A stretch of DNA of 64,000 nt. Source: a virus. The notes beneath the pieces are model-generated. The model made no database searches. It saw nothing but the letters and a program-made list of their open reading frames with translations, and was not told the origin of the DNA. Of this stretch, positions 12,589 through 16,600 are shown in pieces (positions within the stretch are counted from its first letter, which is position 1; each line of letters opens with the position of its first letter). The DNA lies in the IMG/VR virus record IMGVR_UViG_3300027782_003601, positions 1 to 64,000 of that record; one strand, written 5' to 3'. A program made the position numbers and the translations under genes.

Positions 12589-12974
12589 GGGGATGACTGG
12601 TTTTGACAGGAATCTTAATAAGTATAGTTGATGCAAGCAAGGTTAGATGGAAACCTTTGAAGACCTATCAAACAATAAGTGCAAACGTAGAATTATCTAC
12701 TATGACTTTCGGAGATGCTATGGCATGGATGAATTCATTTGATTACGCAGTAGCTGCCTAATCTTTCCCGTATCACTCATGGGATTTAAAAAGAAGTGAA
12801 CAGAAGTGAGGTCTCGTTTGAGGTTCTACCTATTAAAGTGAACCTCCCACAGTTGAGAGTGATAATGGCAAAATAGAAACTCTATATTTTTTCAGTTTAG
12901 AAAAATTGAATAAGCTTGTGAATGAAACATATTGGTTAATTCTTTGGACTTGGGTTCGAATCCCAACATCTCCA
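12589..12974 (+). ncRNA. ssrA: tmRNA (trans-translation RNA)
   Basis: 386 nt. The 5' end GGGGATG pairs with CATCTCC at 12967-12973, forming a tRNA-like acceptor stem, with discriminator A12974. T-arm is TTGGG/CCCAA around TTCGAAT. The resume codon GCA at 12681 lies in AGTGCAAACGTAGAA, like the classic GTCGCAAACGACGAA. The tag reading frame runs 12681-12761 and ends in DYAVAA then TAA. It encodes 26 residues, far longer than the usual 8-12. No CCA is encoded. Confidence 0.9.
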
Positions 12975-12997
12975 CAAAAAAAAATATTAGAAAAGAC

Positions 12998-13028: not shown

Positions 13029-13032
13029 TAAT

Positions 13033-13093
13033 GTTGTTCAGAAGTAGGAAGCATAGATGGTGTAAGTAAACATAGCTGAAAATGTTCAACAAA
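13033..13093 (+). ncRNA. Short structured RNA of unknown class
   Basis: About 60 nt between two copies of the same strong promoter, with no ORF. The ends can pair (TGTTG with CAACA). It lacks a T-arm, so it is not a tRNA. Transcript ends are inferred. Confidence 0.45.
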
Positions 13094-13111
13094 AAAAATA
13101 TTAGAAAAGAC

Positions 13112-13142: not shown

Positions 13143-13155
13143 TATCATAATAAAT

Positions 13156-13228
13156 CGCGGGGAGGATGTTGGTTTTCCCACCGGTCTCATAAGCCAGGTC
13201 TACGATAGTTCGATTCTATCTCCCGCAA
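13156..13228 (+). tRNA. Initiator-like tRNA-fMet (CAT)
   Basis: CGCGGGG pairs with TCCCGCA, leaving the C1-A72 mismatch that marks bacterial initiator tRNAs. Anticodon loop CTCATAA. T-arm GATAG/CTATC around TTCGATT. Two of the three G-C pairs typical of the initiator anticodon stem are visible. The D-arm is degenerate, so the exact fold is uncertain. Confidence 0.7.
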
Positions 13229-13282: not shown

Positions 13283-13384
13283 TAAAACCTTTAGGAATGA
13301 TTGTTGAAGCCAACATCTAATAAAACCGAATGTGTGAAGCCCAACCATAAGTGGTAAGCTATAAAGCCGGAAACAATCAATCTT
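13283..13384 (+). ncRNA. Structured RNA of unknown class with GAAGCC motifs
   Basis: TGATTGTT (13298-13305) pairs perfectly with AACAATCA (13372-13379). Inside are GAAGCCAAC, GTGAAGCCC, a CCA/TGG hairpin and TATAAAGCCGGA. No ORF, no T-arm. It has its own promoter. Confidence 0.55.
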
Positions 13385-13405: not shown

Positions 13406-13436
13406 TTGACAATATCAAAAACTTTTCGTATATTTG
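13406..13436 (+). promoter_or_regulatory. Bacteroidota-type promoter (TTGAC / TATATTTG)
   Basis: TTGAC 13406, TATATTTG 13429-13436. Drives the large non-coding RNA. Confidence 0.8.
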
Positions 13437-13439
13437 TTA

Positions 13440-14340
13440 AACAATTTGAGACCAAAAGGTGATGAAAGATACTCGGTCAAATCAAATGAAAAACGTTCTT
13501 TAAAATATAAACACATAGTAGACTTGTTCTACATAGTGTACATCGGCCGCATATGGTCGTTAAATAAACTACGAAAGTAGGATAAAGTGAACCATTTGGT
13601 TAAGTGGTTTGCGACTTCGTAAGGAGTTCGAGTATGCAAGTGGAATATCATTAGACCTGTGTAGTGAGGGTAACTCCGTAGCGAAATGGTTGAATGACTG
13701 GGCTAAGTAGAAGTTCAGTTGAGGTAGGAATACCAATAAGAATAATCCATAGAGTTAATGCAAGAAGTAAGAACTTAATCTCTTCTTATCATTGCGTGAT
13801 TCAATATTAAAGGTTGCTTAAAACCGAAAGGTATGATGAAGTACGAGTGGTGTCGTTATCATCCTTACCTACATCTCACCAAAGAGTGGGTAGTGAAGTA
13901 ATCTTAAAATATGGTGTTAGAGATAACACATTGAGTAGTTCAGTATTCTGTTGTTCAAAAGATAACGGAGCAGGTTGGCGAACCACTACTTGAAACTATC
14001 TACAAACCAAAACTCAATTTGCTATACGGTGCAAACTTAAACAAAAAGAGCAAAAGTGTTCGCCAGTTGCAAACGAAAGGTGCGTACATAGTAGGGAGAT
14101 GTTCCCTGCCACGATACCTCCGCAAGAGGTCTGTGATTCTTTCTAAAAGCTTCTAACACCGCAAGTGTGAATCTGTTCGGCAGAATAGAAGAAGTAGAGT
14201 AAAAAGAGAGTAGTTTGTAACTCAAAGAGTGGTTCACTTAAATAACCCGCATTGAATCATTACTATCCAAAAGATGGTGGAAACGTTGGGAAACAATAAT
14301 CCAACAAAAGATGGTTCGTTTATGGAGTATTCTCATCCAT
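13440..14340 (+). ncRNA. Large ornate non-coding RNA (GOLLD/ROOL-like candidate)
   Basis: About 900 nt without a credible ORF, after its own promoter and before the tRNA-Gly pair. AAGTGAACCA (13585-13594) pairs perfectly with TGGTTCACTT (14230-14239), enclosing some 635 nt. Inside are GNRA-type hairpins (CTAC-GAAA-GTAG, ACC-GAAA-GGT, GTGTTA-GAGA-TAACAC) and two stems with the same CGCAA loop (CCTC/GAGG and ACAC/GTGT). Size, complexity and position in a phage tRNA array match GOLLD and ROOL RNAs. Membership in either class is not proved. Ends are approximate. Confidence 0.7.
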
Positions 14341-14351
14341 ATCTTTTATAA

Positions 14352-14422
14352 GCGAGATTGGTGTAATGGTAGCACGCTGGCCGTCCAGGTCGGAGGAGGG
14401 GGTTCAATTCCTTTGTTTCGCT
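14352..14422 (+). tRNA. tRNA-Gly (TCC), non-canonical: G33
   Basis: GCGAGAT/GTTTCGC acceptor, discriminator T, CCA encoded at 14423-14425. Anticodon stem CTGGC/GTCGG leaves loop CGTCCAG, so TCC sits at 34-36 but position 33 is G instead of the near-universal U. The T-stem is made largely of G-T pairs. Confidence 0.65.
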
Positions 14423-14428
14423 CCATAA

Positions 14429-14702: not shown

Positions 14703-14730
14703 ACAAACTAAAATATAGTAATGTAACAAA

Positions 14731-14759
14731 CCCCTAACTTAATCAGTTAGGGGTTTTTT
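14731..14759 (+). terminator. Rho-independent terminator
   Basis: CCCCTAAC (14731-14738) pairs perfectly with GTTAGGGG (14746-14753), followed by six T residues. Confidence 0.85.
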
Positions 14760-14838: not shown

Positions 14839-14860
14839 CAAGTAGAGTTCTTTGACATAA

Positions 14861-15703: not shown

Positions 15704-15812
15704 AAAAACACAATGCTGGGTTTCCTAATAGTAACGGCGTGAACATATGTAAGTAAACTATAAGATTCTAGTAATAAGTGGAAGATGGATTCCCCACGGC
15801 TAAAGTGTTTTT
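15704..15812 (+). ncRNA. Structured RNA of unknown class
   Basis: AAAAACAC (15704-15711) pairs perfectly with GTGTTTTT (15805-15812). GCTGGG and CCCCACGGC can extend the fold inside. No ORF and no T-arm. The 3' T-run could also terminate transcription. Confidence 0.5.
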
Positions 15813-15817
15813 TAATT

Positions 15818-16144: not shown

Positions 16145-16600
16145 ATGATTTACAAAAGATTGAGTGATGGTAGTAAAGTTCAGTTAGATGAGTATATTAA
16201 AAAATATATGACTCAATACGAAGATGTGGATATCCTTATAGGTTGTGATTCACAGAACTTTGCAAGAGGAACGGTATATGCTATTGTAGTTGCATTATAC
16301 AGACCTGGCAAAGGTGCTCATGTTCTATTTAACAGATGGACTGCACCAAAAGAATACACTCGTTCTATCAGATTGTTAAACGAAGTATGGTATGCAATTG
16401 AAGTTGCTGAAAAGTTAAGAGAATCAGATGTACCAAAAGTAAAATGGATTGATGTAGACTTGAATCCAGACCCGAGATATAAATCAAATGAAGTGTTTAG
16501 ACAAGCAGTTGGTATGGTTGAAGGTATGGGTTATCAGGTTAGATACAAAACATTAGGTCCGATTGCAACTTATGCAGCAGACCATTTAGTAAAAATGTAA
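16145..16600 (+). CDS. DUF458 (YkuK-like) RNase H-like protein
   Basis: 151 aa from ATG 16145; an earlier in-frame start would run through tRNA-Leu. Motif DILIGCDSQNFARGTVYAIVVALY gives the first strand and catalytic-type Asp of a predicted RNase H-like fold. WIDVDLNPDPRYKSNEV supplies further acidic residues. This resembles the DUF458/YkuK family, predicted ribonuclease H-like nucleases. Placed among tRNAs, it could act in RNA processing, but this is speculation. Confidence 0.75.
   Translation: MIYKRLSDGSKVQLDEYIKKYMTQYEDVDILIGCDSQNFARGTVYAIVVALYRPGKGAHVLFNRWTAPKEYTRSIRLLNEVWYAIEVAEKLRESDVPKVKWIDVDLNPDPRYKSNEVFRQAVGMVEGMGYQVRYKTLGPIATYAADHLVKM

Follow-up and report, generated by a model that had tools for sequence, protein, structure and literature searches.

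The RNA encoded at positions 13440-14340 of the window (the whole 64,000-nt stretch of DNA analysed here, positions 1 to 64,000 of the 176,192-base IMG/VR virus record IMGVR_UViG_3300027782_003601) is, judged from its sequence, a GOLLD RNA of full length, from a Bacteroidota phage with a large genome (176 kb or more). Very probably, a single explanation accounts for the whole locus, in which a promoter is followed by a 5ʹ-terminal hairpin termed M1, by boxA antitermination and by an RNA of about 900 nt that builds a cage. GOLLD, a giant phage RNA, self-assembles into hollow cages, and few other natural RNAs are known to form cages of large size. The analysis contributes many full-length relatives, a full-length fold that is backed by covariation and includes a kissing helix termed K1, and a conserved leader of the rRNA type. 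Three features go further than membership in the GOLLD class, namely K1, the boxA leader and the M1 hairpin; K1 and the leader merit testing. The features are collected in Table 1.

Table 1. Features of the GOLLD locus, in window coordinates
Feature	Position	Strand	Basis or remark
GOLLD promoter, TTGACA-N17-TATATTTG, Bacteroidota type	13406..13436	+	11/12 consensus match
M1, 5ʹ-terminal hairpin module, core AGGTGATGAAAGATACTCGG	13444..13487	+	invariant loop, covarying stem, 75 distinct copies
boxA GTTCTTTAAAA	13495..13505	+	exact match to GYTCTTTAANA (PMC5725501)
GOLLD 5ʹ domain (cap domain)	13511..13930	+	18 predicted helices, about 40 covarying pairs; outside Rfam model
First hairpin of 5ʹ domain (ACAC-GUAGA...UCUAC-GUGU)	13511..13539	+	sequence and alignment of relatives
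K1 5ʹ strand (GUAGA), loop of 5ʹ-domain hairpin 13697-13719	13707-13711	+	covariation with 13999-14003
GOLLD 3ʹ domain (ring domain)	13931..14339	+	Rfam RF02032, 296.6 bits, E 7.7e-84, model positions 1-416
Pseudoknot closing the linker	13977-13983 with 14058-14064	+	98-100% paired; double changes in up to 37/93 sequences
K1 3ʹ strand (UCUAC), start of variable linker	13999-14003	+	covariation with 13707-13711
Variable linker, equivalent of disordered linker inside env-38 cage	14004..14057	+	Rfam alignment position compared with text of PMC12286853
Second pseudoknot	14079-14084 with 14248-14253	+	99-100% paired; double changes in up to 49/93 sequences
CGCAA loop, probable L20, partner of 14050-14051 (bridge B7)	14121..14125	+	covariation, loop and partner variants
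CGCAA loop, probable L21a (symmetric intermolecular kissing loop B8)	14160..14164	+	GC/CG switch
tRNA-Gly(TCC)	14352..14425	+	12 nt after GOLLD 3ʹ end; possible RNase P processing point
Probable intrinsic terminator of GOLLD-tRNA-Gly unit	14728..14756	+	12-bp stem with T-run

Class, relatives and host

The RNA is embedded in a region of stable RNA genes. Upstream are a tmRNA (12589-12975) and a tRNA-Met-like gene, and downstream is a run of tRNAs of which tRNA-Gly is the first; in all, ARAGORN reports 24 genes, including the tmRNA. The original prediction was of a structured noncoding RNA of about 900 nt within this array, either a member of GOLLD or ROOL or a new class of large RNA, and it proposed a search with Rfam covariance models. 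The structured RNA is borne out by paired cells and compensatory changes (see below), and the search, now run, returned GOLLD. At 296.6 bits the match scores almost twice the curated cut-off (gathering score) of 150 bits for RF02032, a model whose 416 positions span the 3ʹ domain only, and it places the RNA in a class whose criteria include self-assembly into a 14-mer cage and expression rising during lysis. The Rfam ROOL model has no match in the window, whether at its gathering score or up to E = 5, and the other large-RNA Rfam models have none up to E = 5.

That the RNA is a ROOL or belongs to a wholly new class is therefore extremely improbable. ROOL is likewise a large, cage-forming phage RNA found near tRNAs, so that size and the tRNA-array site fit it equally well, but the GOLLD score lies far over threshold where ROOL gives no match; furthermore, the 5ʹ domain also occurs in Acinetobacter phages and in huge phages whose RNAs likewise score as GOLLD. 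Still less credible is an origin from a protein gene that has decayed or been split. Short sense ORFs of up to 59 aa do occur, but the longest (13814-13993) is open in 4 of 93 relatives and none is conserved, in agreement with the predicted lack of an ORF. Moreover, sequence change tracks base pairing, and the compensatory changes refute a coding origin. The reading as GOLLD is the one followed here.

Relatives of the RNA are numerous in viral collections. Blastn recovers two uncultured phages of about 640 kb, which align to 85-87% of the RNA at 65-66% identity, and also an Acinetobacter phage. GOLLD scores above the cut-off in 27 of the 37 related phage contigs that were gathered via a neighbouring RNase H-like protein (16145-16597), several of the other 10 ending close to the query gene, and in three phage-collection records. 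The hairpin pattern of the 5ʹ domain is found in at least 120 IMG/VR viral contigs, and 120 of 120 are GOLLD by the full-length profile, with the same two-domain architecture; in bacterial contigs the same pattern has 19 matches, of which none is GOLLD by that profile. Acinetobacter-phage GOLLDs match both domains of the full-length profile, and a Streptococcus-phage GOLLD matches the 3ʹ domain only. The GOLLD model, scored on just three candidates per genome, had no match in 400 genomes from the class to which one Bacilli strain belongs. A second pattern, GCAAAAGTN{18,32}ACGAAAGGTG, was tried as a GOLLD marker and rejected; it matched 38 viral contigs, none of them GOLLD.

A Bacteroidota phage had been proposed as the source, an assignment backed by the promoter type (TTTG...TATNTTTG) and by a boxA common to Bacteroidota rRNA leaders. 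The RNA-ligase protein, used for host inference, has its best matches in Arthrobacter and Streptomyces phages, at approximately 36% identity, and gives no indication of the host.

Two-domain fold, K1 and probable cage contacts

Covariation shows that the RNA folds as two domains, a cap at the 5ʹ end and a ring at the 3ʹ end. The alignment comprised 93 full-length sequences without redundancy, the most distant of them 61% identical to the window. Pairs were scored by an APC-corrected G-test, with 20 tree-based null alignments as background (E < 0.05), using a script of our own that is modelled on R-scape but is not R-scape itself. This yielded 91 significant covarying pairs, 89 of which are canonical in more than 80% of the 93 sequences. 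About 40 lie inside the 5ʹ domain, outside the Rfam model. From the first hairpin to the 3ʹ end the GOLLD RNA measures about 830 nt, in keeping with a class of RNAs longer than ~800 nt in which the 3ʹ domain is conserved and the 5ʹ domain less so; both domains covary. An independent MAFFT alignment of 36 sequences supports a 97-pair structure over 13697-14064, in which 96.0% of cells are paired; sliding the structure lowers this to 37-47%. Compensatory double changes in homologs, on which the original prediction had staked the structure, are present at 70 of these 97 pairs.

The helix K1 spans 5 bp, and 99.8% of its cells are paired in the 93 sequences, versus 31-72% when slid. Its pairs are canonical in 100, 100, 100, 100 and 99% of the sequences, with types such as GC, AU and CG, and both sides changed in 15 pair-branch events on the tree. 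In the independent alignment, 95.6% of K1 cells are paired versus 30-45% slid, and the pseudoknot that closes the linker reaches 98.6% for the four pairs counted. K1 and the two pseudoknots form, as the covariation shows, although such covariation reads the same for pairing within a chain and between chains; the pseudoknots may already be part of the published structure. Because K1 is not recognisable in the alignment of Acinetobacter-phage GOLLDs, it may be clade-specific or misaligned there.

Several smaller elements had also been read from the window. GNRA hairpins are present, with GAAA at 13573-13576 and 13826-13829, and two stems do carry an identical CGCAA loop. A perfect 10-bp helix (13585-13594 with 14230-14239) exists in the letters but is not conserved in relatives, where 3 of its 10 pairs are canonical in only 25-35% and its two arms pair locally in 95% and 91%. 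By our own estimate, a 900-nt sequence should contain about 0.4 perfect 10-bp matches by chance alone; the helix is a chance match.

The GOLLD RNA of env-38, resolved by cryo-EM as a 14-mer (Kretsch et al. 2025, PMC12286853), is described in that paper's text as an 833-nt RNA downstream of Met-tRNA, with a 5ʹ region of 420 nt and a 3ʹ region of 413 nt. Counted back from 13931, 420 nt lead to 13511, the exact start of the first conserved hairpin. Because the span ends on this hairpin, the window RNA probably has the env-38 architecture, judged from the published lengths. The two share a full-length 3ʹ domain, total size, a two-domain plan with a domain of about 420 nt upstream of the 3ʹ domain, adjoining phage tRNAs and, going by the text of the env-38 paper, the signatures of contacts B7 and B8. 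Pair 14051:14122 covaries (E 1.6e-7), as in the published intermolecular bridge B7 (L20:J13/15), and a dinucleotide in the loop at 14160-14164 is GC in some relatives and CG in others, the switch that the text reports for B8 (PMC12286853). When the Rfam alignment is matched to that text, the CGCAA loops are the probable L20 and L21a. Since both contacts are carried, the RNA should assemble as the GOLLD 14-mer cage. Unlike env-38 GOLLD, the window RNA belongs to a Bacteroidota-phage clade, has a leader with M1 and boxA, and carries the covarying K1 between the 5ʹ domain and the start of the linker; the main text on env-38 presents the two regions as distinct domains and mentions no K1-like helix (PMC12286853).

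The leader and a proposed mechanism

As had been predicted, the RNA has a promoter of its own. Of 149 distinct relatives, 133 have an equivalent Bacteroidota-type promoter upstream of GOLLD; among mononucleotide shuffles the proportion is 4.8%. Between promoter and boxA lies M1, with the invariant core AGGYRATGAAAGATACTCGG. M1 occurs in at least 119 viral contigs (including loci L335, L340 and L382), is absent from 297 Bacteroidota genomes searched as hosts, and has no match in Rfam. In 75 of 75 copies with a recognised promoter it lies 18-22 nt after that promoter, which places it at the transcript start. What comes next varies between boxA with GOLLD, a tRNA-like gene and a further promoter; in other phages its slot is taken by different modules. 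M1 is thus apparently a separate, undescribed phage RNA element. The antitermination sites nut of lambda and put of HK022 are structured RNA near the transcript start. M1 resembles them in this respect and has a boxA beside it, whereas its sequence is unrelated and it has no known partner, so that the comparison is a lead only and a nut- or put-like role is a guess from position alone. In several phages (L325, L327, L329, L332 and L335), the tRNA-like genes downstream of M1 have an enlarged D-arm (GGTTGAGGTAGCTCAGTAACTCTTCGGGGTT...).

The assignment of boxA is well supported on sequence grounds by three comparisons. The site fits the published consensus GYTCTTTAANA, which is gamma-proteobacterial (PMC5725501). 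It is the same 11-mer, GTTCTTTAAAA, as the boxA of the Legionella pneumophila Lens CRISPR array, which raises a long noncoding precursor about tenfold (PMC7862264). In Bacteroidota rRNA leaders, GTTCTTT(G/A) precedes 16S in 10 of 14 usable loci, often recurring after 16S; three of the remaining four have variants such as GTTCATTGA or GTTCGTAGA, and the fourth comes from one of the three genomes with variants, where it is a second copy. Among GOLLD leaders, a boxA-like GTTCTTT(A/G)A occurs in 141 of 149, versus 1.7% of shuffles, and is located downstream of the promoter and before the first GOLLD stem. The window thus shares with rRNA operons and CRISPR arrays a boxA between a promoter and a long untranslated RNA (PMC5725501, PMC7862264); unlike theirs, it precedes a phage GOLLD RNA, where its role is putative.

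These features suggest a course of events for the locus. Host RNA polymerase would start at the conserved promoter and transcribe M1 first and boxA next. Being exact and conserved, boxA most likely loads NusB/S10, the role it has in host rRNA operons and in CRISPR arrays, and the polymerase so loaded would read through about 900 nt of untranslated RNA with no Rho termination. The 3ʹ end is probably freed by RNase P at tRNA-Gly or by the terminator downstream. The cap and ring domains, tied by K1 and several pseudoknots, would then assemble as the 14-mer cage with the linker pointing inside, as the published description of env-38 implies. Most likely, the cage holds or displays something around the linker late in infection.

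Two parts of this account have competing readings. It is rather unlikely that the M1 and boxA leader serves the whole tRNA/tmRNA stable-RNA region, with boxA acting mainly on tRNAs and GOLLD merely lying downstream. Such a general leader would suit the second boxA-like sequence, GTTCTTTGACATA, at 14847-14859 just before the main tRNA run, the 19 of 120 relatives in which a boxA immediately precedes a tRNA located downstream of GOLLD, and the presence of M1 before tRNA-like genes without GOLLD. Against it stands the position of boxA ahead of the first GOLLD stem in the 141 phages, and a tRNA follows GOLLD within 60 nt in only 27 of 128. K1, for its part, could conceivably be a quaternary contact between chains, to which covariation is blind, and many GOLLD kissing contacts are intermolecular in the published description (PMC12286853). 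We consider this somewhat doubtful, as the text of that paper gives a single A-minor contact, B1, as the only one linking the 5ʹ region of one chain to the 3ʹ region of another (PMC12286853); an intramolecular tie is the preferred reading of K1.

A broader proposal is advanced only tentatively: Bacteroidota phages may open their stable-RNA operons (GOLLD and tRNAs) with M1, or a module in the same slot, plus the boxA of host rRNA, the two jointly forming a dedicated nut/put-like antitermination signal. If so, this signal would cause the GOLLD cage RNA to be transcribed like ribosomal RNA. The leader would provide a concrete handle on the amount of GOLLD made, and the relatives a specific phage group for knock-out.

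Neighbouring segments and additional GOLLD loci

The promoter of GOLLD is part of a repeat of about 66 nt, of which four copies (at 12965, 13079, 13219 and 13373) fall within 470 nt and precede GOLLD, a tRNA-Met-like gene and two unexplained short segments. The segment at 13031-13094 (GTTGTTCAGAAGTAGGAAGC...AAAATGTTCAAC) is promoter-driven, has no Rfam match and is kept in several related phages; the second, at 13283-13382 (GAAGCCAACATCTAATAAAACCGAATGTGTGA...AAAGCCGGA), is likewise promoter-driven and without Rfam match and is kept in about 15 related loci. Positions 13155-13228 are tRNA-like, with a CAT anticodon loop, and go unreported by ARAGORN and Rfam; in relatives, a recognised tRNA-Met is often found upstream of GOLLD. 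Within the tRNA array, a noncoding gap at 15704-15815 has no Rfam match and a predicted fold of -22.9 kcal/mol. Outside the window, an unannotated GOLLD of 207 bits is present in Acinetobacter phage vB_AciJM_313 (L004; PX050566.1, 81344-81727), and a similar RNA occurs in its relatives among the Acinetobacter phages, Bestia for example.
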